The translations under genes and the position numbers were made by a program. Under the pieces are notes generated by a model. The model saw nothing but the letters and a program-made list of their open reading frames with translations, was not told the DNA's origin and made no database searches. From the NCBI GenBank assembly GCA_018816945.1, contig JAHIVC010000018.1, positions 1 through 64,000 of the forward strand: a stretch of 64,000 nucleotides of DNA. The letters run 5' to 3'. Source of the DNA: Bacteroidota bacterium. Lineage in GTDB: Bacteria; Bacteroidota; Bacteroidia; Bacteroidales; GCA-2711565. Of this stretch, positions 44,799 through 63,944 are shown piece after piece. How positions within the stretch are numbered: the first letter of the stretch is position 1; every line of letters begins with the position of its first letter.

Positions 44799-44872
44799 TC
44801 CTCCTTAGCTCAGCTGGTTAGAGCATCTGACTGTTAATCAGAGGGTCTCAGGTTCAAGTCCTGAAGGGGGAG
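44799..44872 (+). tRNA. tRNA-Asn (anticodon GTT), island attachment site
   Basis: Acceptor TCCTCCT pairs with AGGGGGA (one U-G pair), the anticodon loop CTGTTAA gives GTT, and the T-arm is CAGG/TTCAAGT/CCTG. Discriminator G. Its 3' 43 bases plus three following bases are repeated at 62631-62676. Confidence 0.95.
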
Positions 44873-44875
44873 CAA
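44830..44875 (+). repeat. Left attachment repeat (inside tRNA-Asn)
   Basis: 46 bases from the anticodon stem through the tRNA 3' end and the following GCAA, identical to 62631-62676. Confidence 0.92.
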
Positions 44876-44883
44876 CAACAATA

Positions 44884-44919: not shown

Positions 44920-44921
44920 AT

Positions 44922-44947
44922 GCGCAAGGTTTGAGCAAGGTTTTGGG
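44922..44947 (+). repeat. Arm-type repeat, left end
   Basis: GCGCAAGGTTTGA then GCAAGGTTTTGGG: a doubled CAAGGTTT unit that recurs almost identically near the right end (62508-62534) and once after the integrase gene (60203-60225). Likely integrase arm-binding sites. Confidence 0.6.
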
Positions 44948-45103
44948 AAGTCCCTCCCAAAAAACAAGAGTTCGAATATGTCCTTCTGTCTCATTTCAAA
45001 ATCTATCTTGTGCATTGTTGATAAGTTTCTGATTGGTTTTTATCTTGCAAATTGAGATATAAAATACAAAAGATTATTTTAGTGGTCTGATAATTTAAAA
45101 TCA

Positions 45104-45304
45104 ATGAACAGAATTAAAGAAGTACTTGAAGAAAAAGGAATAAAGCAGACTTGGTTGGCTGACAAACTGGGGAAGAGTTACAATATGGTAAACTCATATG
45201 TGCAAAATAGACAACAACCAAGATTAGAAGTTTTATATCAGATTGCTGAAATACTTGAAGTTGAAGTAAAGGACTTATTAATAGAGAAGAAGGATGTTAA
45301 ATAA
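45104..45304 (+). CDS. XRE-family HTH regulator of the restriction operon
   Basis: A 66-aa Cro/C1-type helix-turn-helix protein (KQTWLADKLGKSYNMVNSYVQNRQQPRLEVLYQIAEIL covers helices 2-5). The res gene starts inside its last codons (11-bp overlap), so it is translationally coupled and probably acts as the control protein of the restriction operon. No clear operator palindrome is visible in the 230 bp upstream. Confidence 0.88.
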   Translation: MNRIKEVLEEKGIKQTWLADKLGKSYNMVNSYVQNRQQPRLEVLYQIAEILEVEVKDLLIEKKDVK

Positions 45305-48188: not shown

Positions 48189-48191
48189 GAT

Positions 48192-50207
48192 ATGCCAGTA
48201 AAATACATCCCGTATTACCCGAACACGGTTGAAGGACAAGCCATTTTAGACAATATTACACGTAGTCAACGAGTTTTGCGTTACCGCGAAAACGACAAAG
48301 TTTACGACCGAATAAAACGGGGAATGCCCTATTACGAAGTAGAGCAATTGGAGACCGTTGGCGAACCATCTGAAAATTTGGTAATCCGTGGCGAATGTAT
48401 TTCAGCTTGTGCTTACCTCAAAGAAAAAGGAATTAAAGTGGACTTGGTTTATATTGACCCACCTTTTGCTAGTGGTGCAGATTATGCTAAAAAGGTGTAT
48501 TTGCGTAAAAACCCAAAACTTGCTGAAAAAGTAGCAGCAGCCGAACAAGAAATGGATATTGATGAACTCAAAGCATTTGAGGAAAAGATGTATGGCGATA
48601 TTTGGCAAAAGGAAGATTACCTGAATTGGATGTATGAAAATCTGATGGCAATAAAAAGCGTGATGAGTGATACTGCAAGTATTTATTTACATCTTGATTG
48701 GCATATTTCACATTATGCAAAAATATTGATGGATGAGGTTTTTGGAGAGGATAATTTTGTTAATGAAATTATTTGGAGAAGAAAATTAGCAACTTCTTAT
48801 GCTTCAAAACAATTTGGAATAACAAATGATACAATATTTTGGTACTGCATTGGTGATGAATATGTTTTTAATGCAGAGTATTCTTTAGAAGATGAAAATA
48901 CCCAAAATTATCTTGCCGAAAGATTTGTTTATGATGATGGTGATGGTCGAAAATACATGAAATCACCTCTTGTTAACTCATTATTCCGTCCGAATCTAAA
49001 ATATGTATTTAATGGCATAGAACCTCCTGAAAATGGTTGGTTATATAGCAAAACAAGAATGCAAGAGCTATTTAATAACAATGAACTTGTAATACCCGAA
49101 AATGGTACAGGTAGAATTTATCGAAAAATTTATGCGGATACATATCAAGGTCAACTAATTCAAAATTTATGGCTTGATATACCTATTGTAAACCCAATGG
49201 CAAAAGAACGATTGGATTATGCAACTCAAAAACCAGAAGCTTTATTACAACGAATCATAAAAGCCAGTAGCAATAAAAATATGATAATCGCAGATTTTTT
49301 TGGTGGCAGTGGAGTAACCGCAAAATCGGCAAACGACTTAGGCAGAAAATTTATTCATAACGATATTGGCATCAATAGTATACAAACCGTAAGAGATAGG
49401 CTAAAAGAAGCAAAGGCAAATTTTCAAATATTTGAAATTAAAGACGGTGTGAGTTTATTCCGTAATCCACAGCAAACAATGGATAAACTAGCAATACTTA
49501 TTCCAGGCTTACAAAAAGGAGTAAAAGGAATTAGTAATTTTTGGTTTGGTGCCATTTCCAAGAGCAAAGAAGGAATTGTGCCTGTGTATGTTCCTAATTT
49601 GCTCAACACACAAGAAAAGGTTTTGGATATTCCAACAATTAATACCATCATTAATCAGGAATTGCAAAACTTAGAAGTGAATGCAAAAAAAGTAATCGTT
49701 TATTACATCGACATTGACGACCAAAAAGCATTAGAAAAATTCATAAAAGACAATAACGCCACCGAAATTGAAGTTGAACTAAAAGACCTTAAAAACCTGC
49801 TTCACGACGTAGTAATTGAAGATATTATTGAGTTTACGACCAGTGAAACCAAAGGTGTTTTTACAACCGAAATTACAAAATTGATAAGCGACCGATTAAT
49901 TCAAAAAATTGGAGAGTTCAACCAAAAAGGGAATTTACAATCCGTAATCAAAGGCAAAAAATTTGAACCAATCAATATTAGCAACGAAGGATTAGAACTT
50001 ATTGAGCTCATTGCCCTTGATTGTAAAAATACCGAAGGACAATGGCACAGCACAACCGAAATAAAGATTAACAAACTTGGCTATGTCATTAAAGACGGAG
50101 TTAAATCAAAAGAGTTTTGGGATGGTAAAATAGTAAGTGATACCAAACCGAAACGAATTAAAATAAGGAATATAAGTGGGGATGAAACGATAAGAGTCAT
50201 TGAATAA
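48192..50207 (+). CDS. Type III modification methyltransferase (Mod), N6-adenine class beta
   Basis: A 671-aa DNA methyltransferase with motif IV DPPF at residues 89-92 preceding motif I FGGSG at about 370-374, the class beta order. The stretch between them is the target-recognition region. Mod recognises the sequence for both methylation and cleavage. It starts 3 bp after res and its stop overlaps the next start (TAATG), so the operon is tightly coupled. Confidence 0.9.
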   Translation: MPVKYIPYYPNTVEGQAILDNITRSQRVLRYRENDKVYDRIKRGMPYYEVEQLETVGEPSENLVIRGECISACAYLKEKGIKVDLVYIDPPFASGADYAKKVYLRKNPKLAEKVAAAEQEMDIDELKAFEEKMYGDIWQKEDYLNWMYENLMAIKSVMSDTASIYLHLDWHISHYAKILMDEVFGEDNFVNEIIWRRKLATSYASKQFGITNDTIFWYCIGDEYVFNAEYSLEDENTQNYLAERFVYDDGDGRKYMKSPLVNSLFRPNLKYVFNGIEPPENGWLYSKTRMQELFNNNELVIPENGTGRIYRKIYADTYQGQLIQNLWLDIPIVNPMAKERLDYATQKPEALLQRIIKASSNKNMIIADFFGGSGVTAKSANDLGRKFIHNDIGINSIQTVRDRLKEAKANFQIFEIKDGVSLFRNPQQTMDKLAILIPGLQKGVKGISNFWFGAISKSKEGIVPVYVPNLLNTQEKVLDIPTINTIINQELQNLEVNAKKVIVYYIDIDDQKALEKFIKDNNATEIEVELKDLKNLLHDVVIEDIIEFTTSETKGVFTTEITKLISDRLIQKIGEFNQKGNLQSVIKGKKFEPINISNEGLELIELIALDCKNTEGQWHSTTEIKINKLGYVIKDGVKSKEFWDGKIVSDTKPKRIKIRNISGDETIRVIE

Positions 50208-51262
50208 TGTCGAGAGGTTTACCATACAATGTAAAACAAAGCCTTGAAAAATCAAGAGATTCGGCATTGTTGGCTATTGAAACATACAATAAGCCAGCAA
50301 TAAAGTTCCGTTCAGGAGGGTATATTGTGCTTATGGTAATTTCTTGGACTTCATTATTTCATGCCATATTTTTTAGAAAAAAAATAAAACCATTCAGAAG
50401 GGAGGAAGGTAGTAATCGCTTTAAAATCATAGAAAATGACTTCTGTTACTGGAACCTCAATGAATGTTTAAAGGAATATTTTAAATCTGATACTCAAAAT
50501 CCCATTAAAAGCAATCTAGAGTTTTTCATTCCATTACGAAACAAGATTGAACACAAATCTTTGCCCGAAATAGATTCTGATTTATTTGCGGAATGTCAGG
50601 CTATGCTTCTTAATTATGATAAAATTCTTGAAAAGGAATTTGGTGTTGATTATTGCATACGTGAAAGTTTATCGTTTTCATTACAATTATTTCCATCTCC
50701 CCGTGGTCTTGTAGATGCTGTAAAATCAAACCCAGATGCAAAAAAGGTAAAGGATTTTATCAATCAATATCGTTCTTCACTTTCAACAGAAATTCTCGAG
50801 AGCGGTCAGTATTCTTTTAAAGCTTTTTTATTACAAGTTGTAAATCATAAATCTGCTGATTCATTACCAATACAATTTATTCGTTATGATGAATTATCAG
50901 AAGAAGAAAAAAGAAATGCTAACAGGATTGCAGCTCTAGTAAAAGTTAAAGAACGACCAGTTTCGGGTAAAGATTTATTAATGCCAGGTAAAGTTGTGGA
51001 AATTGTTCAACTTGGAATAGGTAATCCTAAAATAACCAAGAACAAAATGATTAAAAACAAATTCAATCATTATACACATACAAAATGTTGGAAAAAATAT
51101 TCTGTAAGACCTGATAATGGTGATGCAACCCCTTCAAATACAAATACCAAATATTGTATTTATGATGAACCTTCGGGACAATATAGATATACAAAAGGTT
51201 GGACAGAGTTTCTGATTGAAAAAATGAAAATTGAGGATGAATATTGTGCTTTGTTCAAATAG
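50207..51262 (+). CDS. DUF3644 protein (HEPN-like), linked to the restriction operon
   Basis: A 351-aa protein of the DUF3644 family. A conserved RNKIEH at residues 111-116 has the R-x4-H form of HEPN ribonucleases. The C-terminal part (FNHYTHTKCWKKY then CIYDEPSGQYRYTKGW) is the family's second conserved block. Its ATG overlaps the mod stop, so it is made together with the methyltransferase. It may be an RNA-cutting effector or a partner of the restriction system; no function has been shown that I know of. Confidence 0.82.
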   Translation: MSRGLPYNVKQSLEKSRDSALLAIETYNKPAIKFRSGGYIVLMVISWTSLFHAIFFRKKIKPFRREEGSNRFKIIENDFCYWNLNECLKEYFKSDTQNPIKSNLEFFIPLRNKIEHKSLPEIDSDLFAECQAMLLNYDKILEKEFGVDYCIRESLSFSLQLFPSPRGLVDAVKSNPDAKKVKDFINQYRSSLSTEILESGQYSFKAFLLQVVNHKSADSLPIQFIRYDELSEEEKRNANRIAALVKVKERPVSGKDLLMPGKVVEIVQLGIGNPKITKNKMIKNKFNHYTHTKCWKKYSVRPDNGDATPSNTNTKYCIYDEPSGQYRYTKGWTEFLIEKMKIEDEYCALFK

Positions 51263-51348
51263 ACAAAGTTTTATATTCCTGCTCTATGGCTGGTCGCTAT
51301 TTTATGCCAAAGCAGATTCAAGGCCAGCTATAGATTTTGTCTGCCTTA
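51262..51348 (+). repeat. Imperfect inverted repeat after the restriction operon
   Basis: AGACAAA and TTTGTCT at the ends and CTATGGCTGG with CCAGCTATAG inside form an asymmetric hairpin of about 87 nt directly after the DUF3644 stop. It may end the transcript or be an attC-like fold. Confidence 0.5.
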
Positions 51349-51852
51349 ACGCCTAATCTGTAAATAATAAAACGAACGAAGAATCTATAAATCCTTCTCA
51401 GTTTTTAAGAAAATGTCCCAAAATTTTCAATTTAATTATCTAAAGAAAACCGGTTTTTGAGATTTCTGGCCCAAAAATTTTTATTTCACATACGGGATTA
51501 TACCCAATTAATCACCCCCCCTAGAAACAACTATACTGAGGGGCGGTACGGCGGTAGCCCGGGTGGGGAGCCCATGGCCGGGGCGGAGGGAGGATGGTCA
51601 CCGGGAAAAGTCGAAACTCAAACAGCAAATAATCCATATACCCCATTCCTGTAACCTACAATTAGTCTGTAAACCCAATAAATACAAGTCATCTACAAGG
51701 ATGGTTTGCTGTTTGATTTGTATGGATGGAGATCCGGAACAATTTAGGCGAGATGGATCGCAGATCCTAAGACCAAAAAAAAGACCGTTTTTTTGATAGG
51801 AAAATGCAGGAAAGGGTAATTTGGATTATGGAGTTAAAGATTTGAACTAGGA
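51349..51852. other. Non-coding stretch with a GC-rich structured block
   Basis: About 500 bp without a convincing gene. Bases about 51538-51605 are strikingly GC-rich (runs of G, GGCGGTACGGCGG, AGCCCGGGTGGGG) in an otherwise AT-rich island; CCCGGGTG and CACCGGG can pair. It is followed by an 18-nt inverted repeat (51618-51635 with 51699-51716, two mismatches, 63-nt spacer) and a GGATC/GATCC hairpin near 51751. Open frames through it have skewed composition and look accidental. Confidence 0.5.
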
Positions 51853-52467
51853 TTACCCCAAGATTTCATGTTTTTGTGCAGATTTTTTTACTTTCATTAC
51901 CGTTCGAGTTGAGACTCCATTTACTTTACTTGTTTCACGAACGCTCAATCCTTTCTTTAATGACTTAACAACAGAAACACTTGTCTTTTTGTTTAAGAAT
52001 TCCTTTTCGGATTCGTTTGTTCCACGAGGCCTACCAAGGACACCGCCATTCTGAACATATACCATGCGTCCAGTACTCGTCCTTTCTAAAATATTTTCCA
52101 ATTCCATAGCATAAAGCGAACTCATGGTTGCACAAATGATCTTCCACACAGGATTCGGATTACCATCTGGACGAGATTGCAAACCAAGATTTCGGACTAT
52201 TATGTTCACTCCTTTTGAGTCTAACCATTCGCAGACTGAAATACAATCCCCTACTGAACGACCTATGCGACTCAATTCTTCAATGTGAATTTCACTTACC
52301 TTATTATCTTCAACAAGCTTCACGAGTTCCTTTCCTTTGGGTCTTTCCCTAAATGGTATGGAGCCGCTTATTTTATCGAAAAGTACGAGGTCGTATTTAT
52401 CTGTATCAGCATTGAATCTATTTCCACTCTGATTTATGGTTGAAACTCTATTGTATTTTATCTTCAT
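51853..52467 (-). CDS. Serine recombinase (resolvase family)
   Basis: A 204-aa protein with the resolvase N-terminus YNRVST (catalytic Ser9), the ELSRIGRSVGDCISVCEWL helix region and a C-terminal helix-turn-helix (VSVVKSLKKGLSVRETSKVNGVSTRTV). The first conserved block is slightly shortened and changed (the usual YxRVSTxxQ appears as YNRVSTINQSG). It may be a resolvase or inversion enzyme left from a transposon in the island. No matching res site was identified, though the dyads to its 3' side are candidates. Confidence 0.85.
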   Translation of the reverse strand: MKIKYNRVSTINQSGNRFNADTDKYDLVLFDKISGSIPFRERPKGKELVKLVEDNKVSEIHIEELSRIGRSVGDCISVCEWLDSKGVNIIVRNLGLQSRPDGNPNPVWKIICATMSSLYAMELENILERTSTGRMVYVQNGGVLGRPRGTNESEKEFLNKKTSVSVVKSLKKGLSVRETSKVNGVSTRTVMKVKKSAQKHEILG

Positions 52468-53081
52468 ATCGTGCTATATTTAATCCTAATATAAATGTAA
52501 CACATTTATGCCATTCTGCCTAATATCCAGCTGGTTAATTTAAATTAAAAGTGCATTACTTTTTATTAAGATATTTTGTATCACACTTCAGGAAGTTAAA
52601 CAGGATAAAAAATCTATCCTGATCCCGGAAGATCTATTTGTCGAAGATCAGTTTGCACATCGAATAGAATTGGGGTGTATTTCAAGTTGAAGGCTGTGCA
52701 ATACTAGTTTCCACGAGAACCCGGGAAGGAGATCCATATCCACTTCAGGTTTTTTCAATAAACTTTTCGTATTCGACCACGATATGTGCTATCAAATTGG
52801 AAAAGCCAGACTGATTGACCATAGAAGGCCTATATCTAGAAAATCAAAAGAGGAAGGGATTATGGGGTATGTAGTGATTTTTTCTCCTCAGAAGTAATTG
52901 TTTTGAAGCAGTACCAGAATTCTATATTGAATAAGACAGGTGTAGATAAATGGGCTACTAAATATTATGATATTGTAAGTCAACCCAAGTCCGACGTATA
53001 ACATGCTAGGGATATTATTTATAGAATTGTAGCCCTCCCTATAAATAGGACTATTTAAAGCTAGAAGATCGATTATTGCTA
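52468..53081. other. Decayed region with gene remnants
   Basis: About 610 bp. It contains an AGGATA/TATCCT hairpin (about 52602-52620), a diverged copy of the 3' end of the 89-aa gene (listed separately), and on the plus strand a coding-like stretch ending at TAA 52999-53001 that reads VLKQYQNSILNKTGVDKW without a start codon. It looks like accumulated debris of insertions. Confidence 0.45.
52721..52796 (-). pseudogene. Remnant copy of the 89-aa island gene's 3' end plus IS junction
   Basis: Read on the minus strand this encodes LIAHIVVEYEKFIEKT, stop, then SGYGSPSR, matching the end of the 54086-54355 gene (LVAHIVDEYLLQKKK) and the same TCTCCTTCCCGG junction that precedes the IS remnant there (54073-54150). 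So the same gene/IS boundary exists twice. Confidence 0.55.
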
Positions 53082-53468
53082 TTACTCTTCGTAGTATTTT
53101 ATTATTTCATTTTCTTGATAATCCAATTCATTATTATTAATAATCGCAATATAGTATTTCCCCAGCCTATCATTTTTATTCTCATCGTATTTAAAACACC
53201 AAGCGACAAGATAAATTATATCATTTTTCTTTTCTACTGATAATCTCACGAGTCCACAATACTCACAAATTCCACCTATTTCTAAAACCAAATTTTCATT
53301 TGATAGAAAATCCTCCATCTCTGGTTTAATAGCTTTATTAAATATTTCATTAATGTTAATATCGCTACCAGATAATAATCGATAATCCTTCATTACATCA
53401 TGAACGTCGGTTGATTCAAGGTCACGATATAATAGTTGACTTGTACAAATATTACAATAATCTGCCAT
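53082..53468 (-). CDS. Hypothetical protein with two CxxC pairs
   Basis: A 128-aa protein with CNIC at residues 5-8 and CEYC near residue 69-72, a likely zinc ribbon, and an acidic C-terminal half ending in NEIIKYYEE. No family recognised. It lies alone in the decayed centre of the island; its integrity suggests it is still functional. Confidence 0.5.
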   Translation of the reverse strand: MADYCNICTSQLLYRDLESTDVHDVMKDYRLLSGSDININEIFNKAIKPEMEDFLSNENLVLEIGGICEYCGLVRLSVEKKNDIIYLVAWCFKYDENKNDRLGKYYIAIINNNELDYQENEIIKYYEE

Positions 53469-53540
53469 AATTTTTTTTAAATTGTATTACTAGAATTTCA
53501 CTCTTATTAACTTCACGTAAAAATAATTCTTTATTTTCAG

Positions 53541-53903
53541 CTATTTCACTATTTGAGTGAAACCCGGAGGACTCTTATAGGGAATAGCTTCTATTTTATC
53601 ATTACACATATCTGTATTCATGATTCCTTCATGAACTGTTTCTACAATGAAATTGTAGCCAACACTTGATTCAGCAATTTCAATCCCATCCCAAACATAA
53701 CCAACTTCCTTAGTTTCTCTAAAGGTTTGACCATCATAGCAGAAGATTTTGAAACTGTTACCACAGCAATTTCCACCACATGCAGTAATAATCTCTACTA
53801 ATATGTCTGTATAACCGTCATTATTGAAATCAGCCTCTTTCTTAATATATACGTCGCCAAGTAAATTTGAACTTTTAGAGTCAAAAACTAAGAGAGTATT
53901 AAT
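53541..53903 (-). pseudogene. 3' fragment of a secreted-type gene, truncated by an IS remnant
   Basis: An open frame of 121 codons without a start codon, ending at TAG 53543-53541. It reads ADFNNDGYTDILVEIITACGG, a single FG-GAP-like calcium loop followed by CCGNSFKIFCYDGQTF. The upstream end abuts the stop codon of the IS3-type transposase remnant, so the 5' part of the gene was lost to the insertion. Confidence 0.6.
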
Positions 53904-54075
53904 TCAAAGTTAATTGATTTTTCTGATATTGTTTTTTTCTTGCATTTAAAGTTTTGTCTTTGACATTTTTTCGTTTTCTTAACTTACTTTCTGCCCTTCC
54001 ATAATACACCTCTGCTGGTGTAAGATTTTGTATAGATTCATGATATCTTTCATAATTATAATACTTTACAAACCG
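53899..54075 (-). pseudogene. IS3-type transposase C-terminal remnant
   Basis: About 58 codons reading FVKYYNYERYHESIQNLTPAEVYYGR and then a lysine/arginine-rich tail match the end of integrase-core (rve) transposases of the IS3/ISxO type, where YNxxRxHxSLxxLTPxxVY is the conserved end. The DDE active site and the rest of the gene are missing. Confidence 0.7.
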
Positions 54076-54085
54076 GGAAGGAGAT

Positions 54086-54355
54086 TCACATCCCGTCTTC
54101 AGATTTTTTCTTTTGCAATAAATATTCATCCACGATATGTGCCACCAAATACCCGAACACTGAACCATTTATTGAGGAGAATACGATTACTGGGTCTTCC
54201 TCTAAATCAATTCCCATTTTGTCTTCTAAATAATATTTAGCGAATTGAATCTTCTCTTCTGAAATCTCGTTCATATTGAAATGGTCTTCAAAATCGAAAT
54301 ACAATCGGTCTCTTTCATCGTTTTCATTTGATATGTCAGTGTTTCTATTGCTCAT
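54086..54355 (-). CDS. Hypothetical small acidic protein
   Basis: An 89-aa acidic protein (MSNRNTDISNENDERDRLYF at the N-terminus; IVFSSINGSVFGYLVAHIVDEYL near the C-terminus). No family recognised. It starts 25 bp after a ribbon-helix-helix gene on the same strand and may be its partner. Its last codons run into the IS-remnant junction, so the natural C-terminus may be slightly altered. Confidence 0.5.
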   Translation of the reverse strand: MSNRNTDISNENDERDRLYFDFEDHFNMNEISEEKIQFAKYYLEDKMGIDLEEDPVIVFSSINGSVFGYLVAHIVDEYLLQKKKSEDGM

Positions 54356-54379
54356 AATCTTCTTATTATTTTATAATGG

Positions 54380-54529
54380 TTATTTTGTTAAGTAATCTGC
54401 TAAGGCGAGCCTGACCACTTCGGATTTAGTGATTCGTTCCTTTTTTAACAGCTCAATCAAATTTTGATATTGCTGGACTGTAAGACGGATGCTCAGGTGT
54501 TTGGTTTTTTTCTTATTCTTCATATCCAT
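54380..54529 (-). CDS. Small ribbon-helix-helix (CopG/Arc-type) DNA-binding protein
   Basis: A 49-aa protein with a basic N-terminus (MKNKKKTKHL), a strand HLSIRLT and two helices (QQYQNLIELLKKERITKSEVVRLALADYL), the standard RHH pattern with the serine-glutamate-valine start of helix B. Start ATG 54529 or 54523. It precedes the 89-aa gene, as an antitoxin or repressor would precede its partner. Confidence 0.75.
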   Translation of the reverse strand: MDMKNKKKTKHLSIRLTVQQYQNLIELLKKERITKSEVVRLALADYLTK

Positions 54530-54982
54530 ATAAATATCTGATTGTGCTACAAAATCTCGATTTTTAATAAAAAATGTTCTTCTTTATCAAAGGGTTCACT
54601 TCTATTGATATAATTGACTGTTAAATTTTGTAACACATTGTCGAACAATACTTTAGTTATTGACAACACTAGCAGGATTTCATAATACTAATTGACACAA
54701 TTAAATAACATTTACACCTAATTGTCTGCTACGATAAAAAACACGAATAAAAACCATATAAACATTATTAAAGGAGCAATTTGAGGATGATTTAAGAGAT
54801 ATTAATGTTAAATGAGGGTGTTGTTCTTCTGATTCCTTATCTTCTAACATAGTTCATTAAAATCAATTTTGGGAGGGCATTGTTGATGTTTGTTATCTTA
54901 TAATTAAATAATTTCCTGGCTAAGATGGGAATAAGATTAATAATATATCCGGAACAAAACAATCTGATTTTTTTATTTTCTA

Positions 54983-55079
54983 CTAGTCATATATATGCTA
55001 GTATTTTCTAGTATTATTTCTAGTATTTGTATTCTAGTATTCCTTTCTAGTATTCTTTTCTAGTACTTAGTGCTCTAGT
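54983..55079. repeat. Iteron-like CTAGTA array
   Basis: Eight CTAGT words start at 54983, 54998, 55008, 55020, 55034, 55047, 55060 and 55075; most read (T)CTAGTATT or CTAGTA. Spacing is 10-15 bp, close to one helical turn or a little more, all in one orientation apart from the self-complementary CTAG core. Confidence 0.75.
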
Positions 55080-55099
55080 AAAAAAGTGGCTTTTAGATT

Positions 55100-55390
55100 G
55101 TTGCGTTCGTCTAGTCCTTTAGTTATCACCAAAGGCTAGAACGAACTCTCAAAATATGTCTTTTGAGTTGCTCCCCCTAATCAACGCCGTGTGCTGGGGG
55201 CTGGAATCACCTGTCAAGCCGTTCGGTTGCTCGTCATCCTTACCTTAAATCCCTTTGTTCTCAGGTTGCTCTTTGGATGAGTCCCATTGTAGAGCGATTG
55301 AAAGAATTAACGCAACTGTCATACGTTTAACCGACCATTAATTCTTTATTTTGTTTGGCATTAGCCGTAATAATTGAGGTTTACCTCTGA
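55100..55390. other. Hairpin-dense segment, candidate structured RNA or origin
   Basis: Successive inverted repeats: GTTCGT...CCTTT with AAAGG...ACGAAC (55105-55146), CAAAA/TTTTG (55150-55165), CCCCC/GGGGG (55173-55200), TCATCC/GGATGA (55234-55280), AAGAATTAA/TTAATTCTT (55302-55346) and GAGGT/ACCTC (55376-55387). GGTTGCTC is directly repeated. No open frame fits it. Confidence 0.5.
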
Positions 55391-55647
55391 TGTAAAATAT
55401 AAATAAAATATTCGAAAAAATCAACCCTTAACTAATAATAAATACATCATAATTGAAAAAAAACTGAATCTCATTAAAAAAACTGAATTATACCATCCAT
55501 TCTAAAAACCGCGAATAACCAACTTCCTGTCGTACGATTTAAAGTTAAACCTTGCATTCCAACCTAAAATTTCAATACCAATAGAAATTCTGTTTTCATT
55601 GATATTCCTATTGTTTAGAGGTTTAGTAAAAAAATGTTTCAAAAATA

Positions 55648-55679
55648 TTTGGAAATGAGTATGTCATTACATATCTTTG
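55648..55679 (+). promoter_or_regulatory. Promoter of the 149-aa gene
   Basis: TTTG at 55648-55651 and TATCTTTG at 55672-55679 (20-bp spacing) fit the Bacteroidota promoter pattern, about 25 bp before the ATG at 55705. Confidence 0.6.
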
Positions 55680-55704
55680 CCATAGTTTTGAAAAATAATC
55701 TATT

Positions 55705-56154
55705 ATGAGTCGTAAAAAAACACAGACGAATGTTCCGGGAATTCTTGAAGGATTTGAGGAGTTAGAAAGATTAATTGCTGTACAAGATGGTTTTGTTTAC
55801 AACAGGAAGCCCAAAAATGTTGCCATAGCATTTGACCATCTGCGATTACTTGCTGAAAAGTATAGAACGGCTTTGAATGAGATTGAAGAGGCTATTCTGA
55901 ACTATAAACAGGAATGGATAATTGCTGAACCAACAGTTTACGTCGCCAGAACAAGGGATAAAAAGACGGATATCGAGTATTTCACAGCAAAGACCTTTTG
56001 GCCATTAGCTGGGGGCAAGAATAAAGAGGTTAAGATTTATCTTGGTAAAGCATCTGATTTTGGGGATGATACTTTGAATATAAAAGCGAAGGAGCTAGCC
56101 AAAAGTAAAATGAGTGAAACTCTTCTAAGAAGGAGGGATGAGGGAGATATATAA
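55705..56154 (+). CDS. Hypothetical protein of the island
   Basis: A 149-aa basic protein with a helical middle (YRTALNEIEEAILNYKQEW, about residues 51-69) and a beta-rich C-terminal part (VYVARTRDKKTDIEYFTAKTFWPL then KEVKIYLGKASDFG). No family recognised. It has a good promoter of its own directly behind the repeat array and the hairpin segment, so it could act on those sequences; this is position-based speculation. Confidence 0.55.
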   Translation: MSRKKTQTNVPGILEGFEELERLIAVQDGFVYNRKPKNVAIAFDHLRLLAEKYRTALNEIEEAILNYKQEWIIAEPTVYVARTRDKKTDIEYFTAKTFWPLAGGKNKEVKIYLGKASDFGDDTLNIKAKELAKSKMSETLLRRRDEGDI

Positions 56155-56491
56155 TTTTTATTTAAAAACCATATCATTTTTATACTATGCCATATTACAT
56201 TTTTAAAATAGAAGGGGAGATATTCGATATCGCTTTGAACATTGTTCAGAGGTGTCGGTCTTCAATTTTAACTATTCATCGAGTTCTATATTCCTGCCAA
56301 AGGGAGTGAGATTACAAGTCAAATGGCAAACGGAGGTCAATAAGCGAGTTCCTTAGGAATTCTGTTTTTTTTGACCCAAAACTATGTCATAACAGTGTGA
56401 TGACATACACGGATTGAAATCAATCCTGACGGCCATTGGTATGTTTAAAAACTATGTCAAACAATCAATATAACATATAAATAAAAAGAAA
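56155..56491. promoter_or_regulatory. Upstream region of the ParB-methyltransferase gene with operator-like dyads
   Basis: TATGTCAT (56383-56390) and ATGACATA (56400-56407) form an exact inverted repeat with a 9-bp spacer; ACTATGTCA recurs at 56451-56459, 32 bp before the start codon. GGATTG/CAATCC (56411-56426) makes a small hairpin between them. No gene is seen in these 337 bp. Confidence 0.5.
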
Positions 56492-58093
56492 ATGAAAACA
56501 ATAATTTTTGATACAGAACTGGACAAGGTTCAGTTACACCCATTAGTAAAAGAAGTTTATAAGAACAAAAACCTTGAGGGTTTAAAATTAACAATGAATG
56601 TCATCGGACAACTTGAAGCTGTCAAGGTGGTCGAACGTGATGAATTCTTGAACATCATAGATGGGGCAGGCAGATATTACGCAGCAAAAGAGTTGGGATT
56701 TAAGACCATCCGTGTGGAAGTGCTGGAATACACCGATGAGCAGATTAACGACCAATTAGTTCTGAGGAATTTTAGAACCAAAAGGTCATATAAAGAACTC
56801 TGCGACCATGCGGAACTCATTCTCGGTATTTTGGGAAAATCACAAGGTAAAAAACGTGAGACTATTGGTGATTTAACGCTTGGTAATGATGATTTCGCCC
56901 TTGCAGGTAAAGATAGGTTTGGGATTGCCTGTGAGATTATTGGATGTGATATCTCGGCAACCTCGCTTCGAAGAATTTTTGCCATTAGGGATTTTGAAGA
57001 GAATGGTGACGAGGAGGCCAAAGGGTTTAGGTTAATGGAACGGCTTGAGAGTGGGGAAATGTTGGTCAACCAAGCCTATGACAAGATGAAGGCCTACAAA
57101 GCCGATAAAGCTGAACAGGGAACCAACGCCCTTACTGAAGCTATGGATTATATAAAGGGCAATCATTTTGAACTATTTAACAAAACCAACGAAAATCTCT
57201 CCGATATTCCTGATAACAGTATTGATTGTGCTACGACATCCAACCCTTATTTCGGTCAAAGAAATTACCCTGACGGAACAAACCCCGAAGGTATGGTTCC
57301 ACATGGACAAGAGGAGAATGTGGATGAGTATGTTAGGAATCAGGTTAAGGTTTTCAGTGGCGTTCGTCCTAAACTAAAGGAAACAGGAAGCCTCTTTGTG
57401 ATAATGGCAGACTCATATAATGATGGTAAAAATTGCATGGCAATCTACAAGTTTGCCATTGAAATGATGAAGGATGGTTGGTTCTTTGTTGACGAGTGGA
57501 TTTGGCGAAAAACCAACCAAAAACCCCAAACAGTAAAAGGCAGGCTTCTTCCAACCATTGAACGAATACTCCACTTTGTAAAAGACCCAAATAAATATTA
57601 TTTCAGAGAGTTTAAGAACTGGCAACCTAATCAAGGGTTTGAAATTGTTAAGGGCAAGAAATCCCAATCAAGAAAAGAATCAGGCTGGTCGTTTAAAAGA
57701 CCCCTCGAGCGATTCCGAAATTTCCTCGAAGAGCAGGATGTCAGGAAGATTATCGAAACAGCAGTCTTCAACTGGCAAGAGTTGAGTGAGATTGACCCTA
57801 AATTTAAGCACCTAGCTCCTTTCCCGAGTGTTATACCTCTTTTACCCATCCTGATGACCACAAAACCCGGTGAAACTGTTTTGGACATTTATAGTGGTTC
57901 AGGAACAACAACGGCGGTTGCAGTGGCTTTAGGCCGAAATGCAATTGGGTATGACACCGATACAAAATCACACAATTTTGCGGCTAAACGACTTCAACTT
58001 GTCGATGAGAACAGACCGGATATGGAACAGGTATTCGAATTTGAAAATGAATTTATGCTTGAACCCATAACTCACTGCACAATCAATAATTAA
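56492..58093 (+). CDS. ParB-like domain fused to a DNA methyltransferase
   Basis: A 533-aa protein. The N-terminal ParB/sulfiredoxin-like domain contains IDGAGRYYAAKELG (about residues 56-69), followed by a helical region to about 220. The C-terminal half is a class beta-type N4-cytosine/N6-adenine methyltransferase: motif IV appears as SNPYFG (residues 250-255) where SPPYFG is usual, and motif I as DIYSGSGTTT (465-474). Such fusions occur in phages and integrative elements, where the ParB part binds DNA or nucleotide and the methylase protects or marks element DNA. There is no cognate nuclease next to it, so it is an orphan methylase. Confidence 0.85.
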   Translation: MKTIIFDTELDKVQLHPLVKEVYKNKNLEGLKLTMNVIGQLEAVKVVERDEFLNIIDGAGRYYAAKELGFKTIRVEVLEYTDEQINDQLVLRNFRTKRSYKELCDHAELILGILGKSQGKKRETIGDLTLGNDDFALAGKDRFGIACEIIGCDISATSLRRIFAIRDFEENGDEEAKGFRLMERLESGEMLVNQAYDKMKAYKADKAEQGTNALTEAMDYIKGNHFELFNKTNENLSDIPDNSIDCATTSNPYFGQRNYPDGTNPEGMVPHGQEENVDEYVRNQVKVFSGVRPKLKETGSLFVIMADSYNDGKNCMAIYKFAIEMMKDGWFFVDEWIWRKTNQKPQTVKGRLLPTIERILHFVKDPNKYYFREFKNWQPNQGFEIVKGKKSQSRKESGWSFKRPLERFRNFLEEQDVRKIIETAVFNWQELSEIDPKFKHLAPFPSVIPLLPILMTTKPGETVLDIYSGSGTTTAVAVALGRNAIGYDTDTKSHNFAAKRLQLVDENRPDMEQVFEFENEFMLEPITHCTINN

Positions 58094-58226
58094 CCAAAAT
58101 CCGTGATAATATGAAAAACAAAAAAAACAGAAGTCCTTAGTTTACGAGCCAATAACCAATAACCAATAATCAGAAATAACTTATAATAATTTAAAACCGG
58201 GAACAGGGATACTGAACACTAATACT

Positions 58227-58691
58227 ATGAAAATATTAACTCGCCAACAAAAAAGGGCTTTAATGAGACTAGTTGAAAAGAAAAGAAAAAATTGGAAAGT
58301 TCCAAAGTGGACTCCTATGAAGTTTGTAGAAAAACAAGTAGACCCCGCTAACCCCGAAGGCGATATCGGCATTTTTATAAATGATATTTATAATGTCAAA
58401 GCCAGAGTAATGATTGATGGAATGATTCACCTATCATTTCATAATAAAGATAATTCAACTGATATCCCTTGGACTCACAAGCAGCAAATCAAAAACGATA
58501 TTTGCGGTGAAGATAGGGAAGCAATCGAAATATTTCCTGCCATGAGCCGAATTGTAGATACCTGTAACCAATTTCACTTGTGGGTCTATCCGGAGGGTTA
58601 TATCATCCCAACAGGATTTCCCCAAGATACTAAATACAAATTCAAAAAATCCCAAAATAATTACACCAAAATCGCTACAAACCAGTGTTAA
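58227..58691 (+). CDS. DUF7694-like small protein
   Basis: A 154-aa protein. The block MIHLSFHNKDNSTDIPW, QQIKNDICGEDREAIEIFP and RIVDTCNQFHLWVYPEG follows the pattern I know from the DUF7694 family of phage and plasmid proteins (HLS...W...Q.IKN...G.E..AvE..P..sR.VDt.N.yHLWV). Function unknown. It sits between the methyltransferase and the xis-int module. Confidence 0.6.
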   Translation: MKILTRQQKRALMRLVEKKRKNWKVPKWTPMKFVEKQVDPANPEGDIGIFINDIYNVKARVMIDGMIHLSFHNKDNSTDIPWTHKQQIKNDICGEDREAIEIFPAMSRIVDTCNQFHLWVYPEGYIIPTGFPQDTKYKFKKSQNNYTKIATNQC

Positions 58692-58757
58692 CGCGGGTTT
58701 TATTTGGTATTCTAATTTTAATTATGTATATTTTTAACGCAAAATCGAAGATTAATT

Positions 58758-58967
58758 ATGTTTAATAACAACAAATATTTAACAGTTTATATGCTTGGAG
58801 AGTATTTGCAAATCTCCAGGTCGCTTATCTATAAGAAAGTAAGTAAACAGTCCATTCCATATAAAAAGATTGGAAAAAGTACCCGATTTGATATAGAAGA
58901 AATTGATAGATGGGTGGCAAATGATTGCAAAAATGAATATGAATTACCAAAACTTCAAAAATTATAA
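58758..58967 (+). CDS. Excisionase-type HTH protein
   Basis: A 69-aa protein with an N-terminal winged-helix/MerR-like excisionase fold (LTVYMLGEYLQISRSLIYKKV, then the wing YKKIGKSTRFDIEEIDRWV). It ends 2 bp before the integrase gene. As Xis it would direct excision of the island. Confidence 0.85.
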   Translation: MFNNNKYLTVYMLGEYLQISRSLIYKKVSKQSIPYKKIGKSTRFDIEEIDRWVANDCKNEYELPKLQKL

Positions 58968-58969
58968 TT

Positions 58970-60178
58970 ATGGCAGCTTTTAACTTGGTTTTAGATACCC
59001 GTGTACTGAAAAAGAAAAATCAATATAACCTCGCTATTCGAGTCAATATGGGTAGTGAACAAATGTATCTGAACATCGCAAAGATAACCCAAGAACAATA
59101 CGATCACGTTTTTGAAAAGAAATCAATGGATAAAAATAGTGTTGAGTTTAGGCAGACATGCGCTCAACACTTGGCCAAGAGCGAACGTGTTTTTATAAAC
59201 CTAAAACCATTTGATAAACAGGAATACAGAAGACAGTTTTTCAATAAAGAACCTGAACAAGTCAGCTCATTATTATTGAAAGATTTGTTCGAGAATTTCA
59301 TATTGAAATCTGAAAATCTAAAGCCGGCCAGTAAGGCTCATAACAAATACAGCAGGTCGGTTTTTGAAACATTCAGTCCCGATATCTCAGTATTAAGTAT
59401 TACACCCAATTACATCAATCGGTTTGTTAAAGAAAGATTGGATTCAGGGGTCAGTCAATGTGCAATTGATTCAAATCTGAGGGATTTGAGAAGAATAATC
59501 AATTACTTTTCAAATGAAGACAATATTATCCCAACCAGCTTCAAATATCCGTTTGGGAAAGGCGGATATAGTATTAGTAGCTATTATCCTCGAAAGTTGG
59601 TAATGACAAATGATGAGATTAAAAAGGTAGCTGAATTAAATGAGTTTGAATCGGTGCAGGAAGAATACGCCAGAGATATATGGTTATTTCTTTATAGATG
59701 TAACGGGATTAATTTTGCTGATTTATTGAGAATGCGCTGGGACAATATTCATAACAACTATATCGTGTTTTTTAGGAAAAAAACAGAGACGACGAGGAAG
59801 AATAACAAAAAAGAAATTATCGTCCCTGTAAGTCCTCTATTAAAGGAATTAATGGATAAAATAGGGGTGAAAGACAGTCCGTTTGTGCTGGGAAAGTTAA
59901 AGGAGGGATATTCAAATAGTATGTTTGAGAACAAGAGTAAAAAAATGAAAAAAATTATAAATAATAGCCTCAGTGAAATAGGGAAACGATTAGAAATATC
60001 AGTTCCGTTGATGGTAAAAACAGCTAGGGACTCATATGCTACCACATTAAGACGAGCCGGGGTATCGAAGGATGATATTGGCGAAATGCTGGGTCATTCC
60101 AATTCAATTGTGACCGAACATTACTTGGCGAGCATCGATATGGAATCAACTTTTGAAATTAATAAACATCTTTTTTAA
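58970..60178 (+). CDS. Tyrosine integrase of the island
   Basis: A 402-aa recombinase with an N-terminal arm-binding part (about 1-95), a SAM-like core-binding domain (about 105-205) and a catalytic domain. The first catalytic arginine is Arg243 in YRCNGINFADLLRMRW. Box II reads KTARDSYATTL (Arg353) where HxxRH is the textbook form; the LGHSNSIVTEHYL segment holds the conserved His and the tyrosine nucleophile. It is the obvious agent of integration at tRNA-Asn. An arm-type repeat follows the gene. Confidence 0.92.
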   Translation: MAAFNLVLDTRVLKKKNQYNLAIRVNMGSEQMYLNIAKITQEQYDHVFEKKSMDKNSVEFRQTCAQHLAKSERVFINLKPFDKQEYRRQFFNKEPEQVSSLLLKDLFENFILKSENLKPASKAHNKYSRSVFETFSPDISVLSITPNYINRFVKERLDSGVSQCAIDSNLRDLRRIINYFSNEDNIIPTSFKYPFGKGGYSISSYYPRKLVMTNDEIKKVAELNEFESVQEEYARDIWLFLYRCNGINFADLLRMRWDNIHNNYIVFFRKKTETTRKNNKKEIIVPVSPLLKELMDKIGVKDSPFVLGKLKEGYSNSMFENKSKKMKKIINNSLSEIGKRLEISVPLMVKTARDSYATTLRRAGVSKDDIGEMLGHSNSIVTEHYLASIDMESTFEINKHLF

Positions 60179-60501
60179 GGAGATTGTTTACTAATATATA
60201 AATGCACAAGGTTTTGGGGAAATCCATAATGACAATCCATTTTCATTAGTAATCGTTACGTTTTAATTCATCTTATTTCATATATTTGAAAAAGGTACTA
60301 CAATTTTTATCTAGCGGACAACCCACAGAATTATGTAGCACATGAATTTTGGGGAAGAGGGGAAATATATAAGAACATAAAAGGTGCACAATACATACCA
60401 ATACGGGTGGATATATACATTCAAGGTGAACATATAAATAAGTTATGCGCAAATTAACAACTTTGACATTAATAATTTAGCTTAAAATAAGTAGACACAT
60501 T
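60179..60501. other. Gap between int and the ATPase, with an arm-type repeat
   Basis: 323 bp. CACAAGGTTTTGGGGAAATCC at 60205-60225 matches the arm-type repeats at both island ends. GTTATGCGC near 60444 is close to the reverse complement of GCGTATAAC at 62385-62393, at the far end of the ATPase/TOPRIM pair. Confidence 0.5.
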
Positions 60502-61827
60502 ATGATACAATTTGTTGAAGTAACAGGATTTAAGTCGCTTAATAATTTTAAAATAGAATTAAAAAAGGGATTAAATATTTTAGTAGGACCGAATGGTTCA
60601 GGCAAAACAAATATTATTTCTTTATTTGAATTTTTGTCTCATATTGCACAGAGAGAGGTACAGGATGCAGTTGGTTTATCGGGAGGAGCAGGCTCAATTT
60701 TTAGAAAAATTGGCACAGTTGAATTTAGTAATGAAATTCACATTACTACAAGGGGTAATTGTTTGTTTGATAAAAACAGATATTTCAATTATTTGTATGA
60801 ATTTAAAATATGTGTTATTAAAGAAAAAGGACTTATACGATATTCATACCAAAGGATAATAGGTCAGCTGAGTAATAAACAAGCATTACTTTCTGGAAAT
60901 TCAAAAAACATAGATTTAAACATTGAGCAGTCTGTCAATTCTGATGGGGAAATTGAGGTTAAATTGTTGAAGCTTGACCGAAGAAAGTACAAAAGTCACA
61001 TGTATCGTAAAAACCCTGATAATGAAGAATTAATAGATTTTTTAACTCGTAGTGGTGATAATCAAAAAAGAAGTTTGGTACAGCAACTTTTTAGATTTTT
61101 ATCACATATTGAACTGATTTTTGGAGACTTATTAGGGGGTGAAACATTCAATATTATTCCCACAAAAGTAAAACAGCCTGAAGATATTGCAAATGAACCT
61201 GGAATAAAGAAAGATGGTACAGGCCTGGCTTCAACTTTATACCATATACAAAATAACTTAGATTTAAGAAGGAGTATGTCATATGGTTACATGATTAGAC
61301 GAAGAAGGCACATTAATCCAAAGACATATGAGAGAATAGAAAAGCTAACTAACCTGGCAAATAATTCTATAAAACGAATTGAAGTAGTTAATAACCCTTT
61401 TGATAATCAATTACAAGTAAAAATTCACATTTCAACCGATAAGGAAAATATTGTACTTCCGCTATCGGCAATGTCTGATGGAACTATTAAGTGGATTACC
61501 TTAATTACTGCGATATTAACTACAACCCAAATATTTTCGATTGAAGAACCAGAAAATTATCTACACCCTTGGATGCAGGCGCAGATTGTTGATATCATGC
61601 GAGATACATATGCTTCAAAAAATGAAAATTCCTTTATTATCATGTCAACTCATAGTGAAACTCTACTGAATCATTCAAAGCCAGAAGAGGTAATTATAGT
61701 TAAACTTGAGCATGGCGTTACTAGTGCTGAAAGAGTTAAAAATGCGAAAATGCTAAATGAGGAAATCTCTAAAACTGGATTTGGGCTTGGGTACTATTAT
61801 TTTACAGGAGGACTAGACAATGAGTAG
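60502..61827 (+). CDS. AAA-family ATPase of a probable two-gene defence system
   Basis: A 441-aa ABC/SMC-type ATPase (AAA_21/AAA_15 group). The N-terminus MIQFVEVTGFKSLNNF is the typical first strand, Walker A GPNGSGKT is at residues 29-36, the Walker B region SIEEPENYLHP near 345-357 and the switch motif MSTHSETLL near 383. A large insertion (about 90-300) carries the system-specific part. It overlaps the next gene by 8 bp. ATPases of this kind pair with TOPRIM nucleases in OLD, Gabija and PARIS anti-phage systems. Confidence 0.85.
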   Translation: MIQFVEVTGFKSLNNFKIELKKGLNILVGPNGSGKTNIISLFEFLSHIAQREVQDAVGLSGGAGSIFRKIGTVEFSNEIHITTRGNCLFDKNRYFNYLYEFKICVIKEKGLIRYSYQRIIGQLSNKQALLSGNSKNIDLNIEQSVNSDGEIEVKLLKLDRRKYKSHMYRKNPDNEELIDFLTRSGDNQKRSLVQQLFRFLSHIELIFGDLLGGETFNIIPTKVKQPEDIANEPGIKKDGTGLASTLYHIQNNLDLRRSMSYGYMIRRRRHINPKTYERIEKLTNLANNSIKRIEVVNNPFDNQLQVKIHISTDKENIVLPLSAMSDGTIKWITLITAILTTTQIFSIEEPENYLHPWMQAQIVDIMRDTYASKNENSFIIMSTHSETLLNHSKPEEVIIVKLEHGVTSAERVKNAKMLNEEISKTGFGLGYYYFTGGLDNE

Positions 61828-62392
61828 GCCTGCATATCTTGTTGATGGTCAAACTGAGCAAAAAGTAATTAGGAAAATTTGCCCAAACCAACCCGTTAAA
61901 CTAATTGGGTGTAATGGAGATACTGTTTGTTTAAGTGAAATTGCAAAAAGAATATCTACACACATTAATCTTTTAAATAATAATTATTATCCAATAATTT
62001 GTCTTATTGATAAAGAGAAAAGAACTACAAGCATATCTGAAATTGAGAATGAATTAAGAATTCTTCTAAATAATTTAGGTCATCAGAATGATAATATAAT
62101 AATTGGAGTAGCTGATAGAATGATTGAAAACTGGATTTTAGCAGATTGGGATAATTTTAGCAAATATTATAATATAAATAAAGAGTGTCCTATGTCAAAT
62201 TTTGATGGAATTAGTGGCAAAGGTTTCATAAGGAAAACTGTTGATTTTTATCACGAGACAACTGACGGTGTAGATTTAATTTTATCAGCCGACCCGAAAG
62301 TAATATATTTAAATAGCCCTAGTTACAAACATTTTATTGATAAATTTAATGAAGTAGAATGTCACTATATTGATGAAATAATCAGCGTATAA
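61820..62392 (+). CDS. TOPRIM-like (DUF4276-type) effector, partner of the ATPase
   Basis: A 190-aa protein starting with YLVDGQTEQKV (Glu13), the first acidic motif of TOPRIM nucleases, followed by ICLIDKEKR (Asp64, Glu66) and GVADRMIENWILADWDNF (residues 96-113), a block typical of DUF4276-like proteins. Its start overlaps the ATPase gene, a sign of a fixed-ratio complex. It probably supplies the nuclease or nucleic-acid-cleaving activity of the pair. Family name is by resemblance; nuclease activity is inferred. Confidence 0.7.
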   Translation: MSRPAYLVDGQTEQKVIRKICPNQPVKLIGCNGDTVCLSEIAKRISTHINLLNNNYYPIICLIDKEKRTTSISEIENELRILLNNLGHQNDNIIIGVADRMIENWILADWDNFSKYYNINKECPMSNFDGISGKGFIRKTVDFYHETTDGVDLILSADPKVIYLNSPSYKHFIDKFNEVECHYIDEIISV

Positions 62393-62510
62393 CACGCGGT
62401 ATAAACATTGGGGTTTAATTGGTTATTCGAGCTTTCTGCCACGCATCAAGTTCGGTGTATCTTGATAGGAAAGTCGCCCGCAATCCCCAACGATTTCTTA
62501 TAAAAACGCG
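62385..62510. repeat. Long imperfect palindrome, attC-like, after the TOPRIM gene
   Basis: Left arm GCGTATAAC...GGTATAAACATTGGGG and right arm CCCCAACG...TTATAAAAACGCG can pair with interruptions across about 120 nt. The pattern resembles integron attC sites, but the terminal 7-mers are not canonical. Confidence 0.4.
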
Positions 62511-62534
62511 CAAGGTTTCAAGCAAGGTTTTGTG
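62508..62534 (+). repeat. Arm-type repeat, right end
   Basis: GCGCAAGGTTTCAAGCAAGGTTTTGTG, nearly the same as 44922-44947 at the left end and in the same orientation. Confidence 0.6.
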
Positions 62535-62630
62535 TAAAACCGTGACAAATGGTGGACATCTTAATCTATTCTATTTATAATAACTCACAGAACCCAAGTA
62601 TATTGGGGATTTTGGAATTTCCCCAAAAAC

Positions 62631-62676
62631 ACTGTTAATCAGAGGGTCTCAGGTTCAAGTCCTGAAGGGGGAGCAA
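62631..62676 (+). repeat. Right attachment repeat (3' part of tRNA-Asn)
   Basis: 46 bases identical to 44830-44875. There is no 5' half, so it is not a working tRNA; it marks the island end. Confidence 0.92.
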
Positions 62677-62707: not shown

Positions 62708-62777
62708 ATTGTCGACTGCATATTTATAATTAAAGATTTTTTAAAGGCATGGTTGGTTACCTGCCTAACGCGAAAGA

Positions 62778-62802
62778 CCTGAAGGGGGAACAAAAAGCGT
62801 TT
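62778..62802 (+). repeat. Degenerate third copy of the attachment sequence
   Basis: CCTGAAGGGGGAACAAAAAGCG followed by TTTA repeats the tRNA-Asn 3' end plus the start of the terminator stem (62661-62687) with few changes, about 100 bp beyond the right island end. Confidence 0.65.
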
Positions 62803-62882
62803 AATATTTTGGATGTTTTTTTATTTAAGAATGGTTGTTTGTTAATTTACGATTTTCAATTTGGAAATATGATAAAATCAAC

Positions 62883-63944
62883 CTACACCTTCTTGGATTT
62901 CATCGCAAAGGCTGCTATTCTGTCCAAAAGATTTTCTTTGTCTTTAAAATTATTTACCAATTTATGATTTATTGAATAGACGGCTGTATGCTCTTGTTGT
63001 CCTTTCAAATAAAATTGCCCCAAACGAATAAAGTCCCATTTCTTTTTACAACTTGTTTTTACTAATTCTGAAAGAACAATTGACTTCTCAACTACCCTTG
63101 TATGATCTTCTAAACGGGAGGCGGTATTTACTGCATCCCCAATAATAGTATAATCCATTTTAATTTCTGAGCCCATATTCCCTTCTATTACCATACCTTT
63201 ATCAATTCCATATCCTGAATATAAGAGCGATAGAGGTGAATTGGCAGATACTGTAATTCTAAGTTGCCTTAACTCTTCTAAAATCTCAATACAGGCTTCC
63301 AATGCAAAGTCGGCATTATCACCATTAAAATAAGCCATAAATCCATCACCAATAAACTTATTGACCTCTCCTCCCTTCTTGGTAATAATTCGGGTACAAA
63401 TTTCAAAATAGGAATTGATGAGCAAAAATACATCTTCAATATTCAATTGTTCAGCCAAAGAAGAATAGGACAAGATATCTCCAAAAACAATAATTCGTTC
63501 AACCTCTTTTGGTTGAATCATCACAGGATTTAATCCATTACTAATAATCTTTAAAACACTGGGTTGCGTATATTTTTCAATGACCATATGAGAATCAATT
63601 AGGGCCTGCAAAAGCAACTTGATAGGTAATGAAAGTTCATCTGTCTTTTGATCGAGATTTGTTAACTTCATAGACCAATCAGGGAAATAGCGCTCACTAA
63701 TATCATTTTCCAACTTAAGGGCCAATATATCTTCATGGCGATGGTCACCCTTAATTTTATTAAAAAGCAAGTCAATATCCTTTTCGGTACCCTCGATAAT
63801 TTGAAAAAATAAGTTGTTAAAATAAATAAGAGTGCCCGTTATTTTTTTTGTCCGGTTATTTTTTTCAAATATCTTACCGAGTTCATCAATCTCTGAGAAA
63901 CTTAATTTTGCTTTTAATTTACTGATATAGGTAATTCGTTTCAT
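62883..63944 (-). CDS. BLUF-domain photoactivated adenylyl cyclase (bPAC-like)
   Basis: A 353-aa protein with the same length and plan as Beggiatoa bPAC. Residues 1-95 are a BLUF flavin-binding blue-light sensor: Tyr6, Asn30, Gln48 in FFQIIEG, Trp90 and Met92 match the residues that couple flavin photochemistry to signalling. A linker helix follows (about 100-150), then a class III nucleotide cyclase domain with metal-binding Asp156 (FGDI) and Asp200 (FIGD), ATP-specifying Lys196 and Thr266, and transition-state Asn273 and Arg277 (AVNTASR). All expected catalytic residues are present, so blue-light-driven cAMP production is strongly predicted. It lies just outside the island, convergent with it. 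A TATCTTTG box at 63960-63953 leaves a leader of only about 5 nt. Confidence 0.93.
   Translation of the reverse strand: MKRITYISKLKAKLSFSEIDELGKIFEKNNRTKKITGTLIYFNNLFFQIIEGTEKDIDLLFNKIKGDHRHEDILALKLENDISERYFPDWSMKLTNLDQKTDELSLPIKLLLQALIDSHMVIEKYTQPSVLKIISNGLNPVMIQPKEVERIIVFGDILSYSSLAEQLNIEDVFLLINSYFEICTRIITKKGGEVNKFIGDGFMAYFNGDNADFALEACIEILEELRQLRITVSANSPLSLLYSGYGIDKGMVIEGNMGSEIKMDYTIIGDAVNTASRLEDHTRVVEKSIVLSELVKTSCKKKWDFIRLGQFYLKGQQEHTAVYSINHKLVNNFKDKENLLDRIAAFAMKSKKV

Follow-up and report, generated by a model that had tools for sequence, protein, structure and literature searches.

Whether a Bacteroidota genome can harbor a light-switched source of cAMP, how such a gene came to lie beside a mobile island, and what its product might serve are the questions raised by one gene near the right end of the 64,000-nucleotide stretch of DNA analyzed here (hereafter, the window). 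To our knowledge, photoactivated adenylyl cyclases (PACs) are known mainly as optogenetic tools, and their roles in bacteria have been little studied. Two reports describe light acting in bacteria through a cyclase or its product: spirochete motility is under light control via a photoactivated cyclase whose sensor is neither BLUF nor LOV (PMC9043183), and in a Vibrio cholerae strain, light raises cAMP, with motility (PMC13079933). No report of a PAC in Bacteroidota was found in the open-licence literature, among the matches listed.

Architecture, active-site residues and predicted fold

The gene (62883..63944, minus strand) begins with ATG, encodes 353 amino acids, and reads through without an internal stop or frameshift. 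Pfam searches placed a BLUF domain at the N-terminus (PF04940, 2.1e-24, residues 1-93; 63666..63944, minus strand) and a class III cyclase domain at the C-terminus (Guanylate_cyc, PF00211, 3.8e-14, residues 152-324; 62973..63491, minus strand), both above their curated cut-offs. The best matches in the PDB by phmmer were OaPAC (2e-111) and bPAC (2.4e-101). Together with the fold prediction described below, these results bear out the bPAC-type architecture that an earlier reading of the DNA, here called the original prediction, had proposed. All 11 residues named in that prediction were found: Tyr6, Asn30, Gln48, Trp90 and Met92 in the flavin pocket, where they stand alongside Phe26, and, in the cyclase domain, the metal-binding Asp156 and Asp200, the transition-state Asn273 and Arg277, and the adenine-selecting Lys196 and Thr266. 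Their numbers coincide with those of OaPAC in the pairwise alignment and, as had been stated, run one below those of bPAC, for which a published study gives K197, D201, T267 and R278 (PMC8522238). A match to bPAC "residue by residue" was thus correct for the named sites, although it overlooked Phe26, which occupies a flavin-tuning position in bPAC.

Guanylyl cyclases have Glu and Cys or Ser at the places of the substrate-recognizing Lys and Thr. A guanylyl cyclase reading of the window gene is ruled out by Lys196 and Thr266, the adenylyl-type substrate residues to be expected of the cAMP-making enzyme that had been proposed. As further checks, the original prediction had suggested alignment to the two characterized enzymes and structure prediction, and both gave the anticipated result. 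In a four-row alignment, the protein is 64% identical to its counterpart in the "Bacteroidetes bacterium SP103" metagenome-assembled genome (MAG), 53% to OaPAC and 46% to bPAC; the OaPAC alignment is gapless over residues 1-331, the alpha-3 linker being free of insertions and deletions. An AlphaFold2 monomer run on 20 rows, all of them the window or fetched loci, yielded a model with a pLDDT of 86.7 and a pTM of 0.72. Foldseek matched this model best to OaPAC (4yus, E 2.3e-48, TM 0.83), bPAC chains reached a TM of 0.88, and the best 24 rows were OaPAC or bPAC entries without exception. Architecture, residues and fold, like the locus, were computed directly; by sequence and predicted fold, the window gene is a PAC, and it would couple light to cAMP synthesis.

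The gene also bears signs of constraint. Across its 353 codons, it differs from the SP103 gene at 106, 74 and 207 first, second and third codon positions, respectively, and since the third position is richest in differences, the pattern is as under purifying selection; the counts span both lineages, and recent selection in the window lineage alone lies beyond them. A candidate promoter, TATCTTTG, which matches the -7 type box of Bacteroidota (consensus TAnnTTTG), stops 8 bases short of the start codon; approximately 0.04 such matches are expected per 60 bases. No counterpart of this box was seen by eye in the other PAC loci printed.

A tRNA-Asn hot spot and the origin of the gene

The gene had been placed directly beside a mobile-island attachment site, a position taken to suggest transfer. 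The site itself is genuine: a 46-bp direct repeat has its first copy (44830..44875, plus strand) within a tRNA-Asn (GTT) gene (44799..44873, plus strand), which serves as the attachment site, and its right copy (62631..62676, plus strand) at the end of a 17.8-kb island that encodes an integrase (Phage_integrase, 8.5e-13; 58970..60178, plus strand). Transfer of the PAC with this island did not hold up. Approximately 210 bp separate the end of the island from the PAC stop codon, and the gene, lying beyond both intact att copies instead of between them, is ruled out as island cargo; the phylogeny presented below likewise recovered a Bacteroidota-only clade (99/96).

The island's own genes (44876-62676) include methylases at 48192-50207 and 56492-58093, a helicase-like methylase neighbor recognized by eye at 45294-48188 (no PADLOC match), a PDC-S19 candidate defence protein at 50207-51262 (5e-134), and, at 60502-62392, an AAA ATPase paired with a DUF4276 protein that match HEC-01A and HEC-01B, the ATPase matching 111 models. 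The tRNA-Asn island is possibly a defence island. Elsewhere in the window, the propionate-fermentation operon that had been read from the DNA is plausible: the sodium-pump decarboxylase beta subunit at 29288-30628 exceeds its cut-off (471.8 versus 190.6 bits), but the gene at 26901-28460, whose closest model is methylmalonyl-CoA decarboxylase alpha, falls below the cut-off of that model (801.9 versus 998.8 bits).

What survived of the mobility claim, once cargo status was set aside, was the place of the PAC between degenerate tRNA-Asn 3' ends and the differing content of this place in a close relative. One such end, with a terminator, lies just beyond the PAC stop codon (62777..62826, plus strand). 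Past the right att copy, these remnants occur at C18:62777, 64034 and 65139 (C18 being the contig that holds the window), and a comparable stem-loop and T-run comes after each of them; the latter two lie beyond the window end, and that at 64034 is on the other side of the PAC from 62777. A 15-base tRNA-end motif, picked after BLAST had shown the remnants, matched C18 five times with at most two mismatches, always in the PAC locus and in the tRNA orientation, compared with 0 to 2 matches in each of 20 Markov-shuffled copies of the contig. The rest of the genome provided an independent check on the motif: the whole 4.14 Mb contained 25 matches versus 13 for a reversed control, and all four matches with at most one mismatch fell in the PAC locus, while 20 of the 21 with two mismatches fell elsewhere. 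A 17-base version with up to five mismatches was uninformative (13 matches on C18 versus 4 to 12 in shuffles).

In the relative G002, identity to the locus is 92% on the tRNA side, 90% on the far side, and 78% in the gene adjoining the place of the PAC. Between tRNA-Asn and that gene, G002 has no PAC; it carries a PAS hybrid histidine kinase, bracketed by tRNA-Asn remnants like those described above, and a 644-residue protein (Fib_succ_major-type by eye). With remnants to either side and other genes occupying the site in G002, the PAC counts as accessory, placed in a hot spot for integration at tRNA-Asn. The flanks conserved with G002 share a contig with the PAC, which also makes bin contamination less likely. 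Past the window, at C18:64127-69491 in the same variable locus, a Fib_succ_major protein and a paralogue (by eye) flank two genes, one for a small T9SS-sorted-looking protein and one for a repeat protein of 831 aa that ends in Peptidase_S74. No conserved PAC neighbor was seen by eye in the seven loci listed, two Riflebacteria excepted, and the window and SP103 PACs have no neighbor gene in common.

The Bacteroidota host and the rarity of such fusions there, both part of the original prediction, were confirmed. The same-genus genome G001 is the SP103 MAG (same contig, identical PAC), and a PAC occurs in two of the six genomes of the genus, the window's own and G001; the other four, two of which are 87% and 68% complete, match only via a different class III cyclase. 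At 1e-60, 2 of 393 genomes in the order sample, which does not include G001, carry a PAC, namely the window's own and G338, whose partial gene ends at a contig edge; in the phylum sample, the count is 1 of 395, the window's own genome. A scan of named genomes (79 loci kept, from the best 80 of 124 encoding a relative) returned 38 PACs and 41 loci whose best match is confined to query residues 1-186. By title, and within those best 80 of 124, the PACs comprise 25 from cyanobacteria, four from Thiotrichaceae, four from Riflebacteria/Ozemobacter, one from Desulfobacteraceae and four from Bacteroidota (L014, L015, L016 and L017). Carriage by mobile elements was also sought: plasmids gave no match at E 1e-40, and among 2 and 65 pattern-matching stretches in viral contigs, zero were confirmed.

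Such patchy occurrence (2/393, 1/395 and 2/6 in order, phylum sample and genus), like the hot-spot position, would fit recent acquisition of the gene from a Beggiatoa-type or cyanobacterial source. The tree of BLUF-cyclase fusions that had been suggested as a check argues otherwise. Its 34 rows are the window, the partial G338 protein, OaPAC (residues 1-331), bPAC and 30 of the 38 PAC loci, L017 having been dropped for a frameshift and L031, L032, L035, L036, L038, L043 and L044 as similar cyanobacterial rows. In this unrooted tree, the window, SP103, Saprospiraceae and Lewinella PACs occupy one side of a branch supported at 99/96, and the window and SP103 proteins pair at 100/100. Thiotrichaceae PACs group with bPAC at 100/98 and cyanobacterial PACs with one another at 89/85, so the window PAC stands apart from both the Beggiatoa-type and the cyanobacterial enzymes. 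With one supported Bacteroidota clade and the putative donors elsewhere, a recent gift from either is unsupported, and we consider it highly improbable.

Of the 31 inner branches, 13 are starred and 13 open. At 92/87, the four Bacteroidota PACs group with three others, one from Desulfobacteraceae and two from Riflebacteria, and the Riflebacteria-type L047 and L048 fall far from the other two PACs of that type. A Bacteroidota clade including the partial G338 protein was not recovered, though its constraint was not rejected (AU p 0.108), whereas a constraint joining L020 with the Bacteroidota PACs was rejected (p 0.025); both groups were chosen after tree inspection.

A candidate cAMP circuit

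In the mechanism that we propose, the BLUF flavin would be excited by blue light, the alpha-3 helices would relay the resulting change to the paired cyclase domains, and these would convert ATP into cAMP. This cAMP would enter a pathway that the genus already has, comprising a membrane class III cyclase and a cyclic-nucleotide-binding histidine kinase as the likely receiver. Dimer formation, flavin binding, light activation, the cAMP product and the receiver are all steps that we infer. The genome encodes a single BLUF domain, that of the PAC. Besides the PAC, it has one further class III cyclase, a protein on contig C25 without a BLUF domain, which from its sequence we read as a membrane protein with HAMP. 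A C25-like cyclase is found in five of the six genus genomes; among control genomes, a PF00211 search gave matches in 5 of 14, with none in Bacteroides ihuae.

No obvious cAMP receiver gene lies beside the PAC. Genome-wide, five cNMP_binding proteins were detected, four CRP/FNR-type regulators and one histidine kinase (C10:121566-122813). CRP is the classical cAMP receiver, and with four proteins of this type in the genome, one of them might take this role in place of the kinase; by eye, however, none of the four has the GE...R(S/A)A cyclic-phosphate cassette, which makes this alternative rather unlikely. The search for a CRP-type receptor that the original prediction had recommended thus found proteins of the type but none with the cassette. 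Among the five, the phosphate-binding cassette FGE..RSA (FGEYSLIDEETRSASV) was seen by eye solely in the histidine kinase, whose cNMP domain is closest among solved structures to those of cGMP- and cAMP-dependent protein kinases; cGMP is a possible ligand. A kinase homologue is present in all six genus genomes, PAC-less members included, and so need not depend on the PAC. The matches in G002 and G003 each contain one in-frame TAA, and the cassette is readable in five of the six genomes, the Arg codon in G001 having an unreadable base. Judged by sequence, this histidine kinase is most likely the best candidate receiver.

A photolyase gene, present here as in 8 of the 14 controls, lends weak support to a life in light. 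Overall, the gene product is probably a soluble, dimeric BLUF-type PAC, encoded by an accessory hot-spot gene and feeding a pre-existing cAMP pathway of the genus. A PAC with a nameable candidate receiver makes a light-cAMP-phosphorelay circuit directly testable.

The flavin pocket and comparison with known PACs

Phe26 (codon TTT, 63867..63869, minus strand) takes the position of bPAC Ser27 and is unique among 82 aligned BLUF domains (41 PAC rows and 41 BLUF rows, window included and L017 excluded), the 81 others having a small residue there. In the 40 other PACs, this residue is Ser (36), Cys (2) or Ala (2), and in the 41 BLUF-only loci, it is Ser (23), Ala (11), Cys (5) or Thr (2). According to one bPAC study, S27A brings dark activity down to 40% and moves the absorption peak up by 15 nm, while F198Y reduces dark activity to approximately 4% and light activity to approximately 18% (PMC8522238). 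The equivalent of the latter position, residue 197, is Phe in the window PAC and Tyr in 3 of 34 rows (SP103 [L016], L020 and L040), which are natural PACs with the change that was engineered in PACmn against dark activity. Natural changes in two same-genus PACs fall at two positions that set dark activity or color in bPAC. As a speculative reading, the PAC might be naturally retuned: Phe26 would reshape the flavin pocket, giving shifted absorption and low dark activity, SP103 would achieve low leak via Tyr197, and the host's cAMP-histidine kinase pathway would be intolerant of leak.

Phe26 could also block the binding of flavin or weaken it, in which case the cyclase would be permanently slow, permanently active, or inactive altogether. 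The restriction of all 40 other PACs and all 41 BLUF-only loci to Ser, Ala, Cys or Thr at this position speaks for such an impaired photoreceptor; the intact gene, the presence of the other named core BLUF residues, and a confident AlphaFold2 model around the site (residues 21-30, mean pLDDT 90) speak against it, and we regard it as improbable. The TTT codon differs from the SP103 Ser codon TCT by a single transition, and at one base's distance, a sequence error is conceivable. Phe26 would then reflect faulty assembly or base calling, or a variant of a minor strain, in an otherwise ordinary PAC, a view to which a single assembly of 108 contigs lends some weight; yet the gene is otherwise without frameshift or stop and there is no other sign of poor sequence, and this explanation, too, appears doubtful. 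The PAC is authentic, rare and complete; it belongs to an already known kind of enzyme and has one unusual pocket residue.

Among characterized systems, OaPAC from Oscillatoria acuminata (PDB 4yus, 5x4t) shares the domain order, a 331-residue gapless alignment (53% identity), the 11 named residues and the fold of the window PAC, which differs in having Phe26 for Ser and Gly201 for Cys and in being 13 residues shorter at the C-terminus than the 366-residue OaPAC-type proteins. In OaPAC, the last nine residues are reported to restrain activity (PMC6937261); by analogy, from its shorter C-terminal end, the window PAC should behave more like bPAC than like OaPAC. Beggiatoa bPAC (PDB 5m27) has the same architecture and fold at 46% identity and a similar length (349 versus 353 residues), and here the window PAC has Phe26 for Ser27, Tyr265 for His266 and Gly201 for Cys. 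The PACs of the SP103, Saprospiraceae and Lewinella MAGs (L016, L014 and L015) form one clade with the window PAC (99/96), and Glu103, Gly201, Thr320 and Lys334 are common to these four and absent from the other 30 of the 34 rows. Gly201 adjoins the metal-binding Asp200 and is replaced by Cys or Ser in the remaining 30 rows. Within the clade, the three relatives have Ser26 where the window PAC has Phe26, and the SP103 enzyme has Tyr197, which corresponds to the F198Y change engineered in bPAC.
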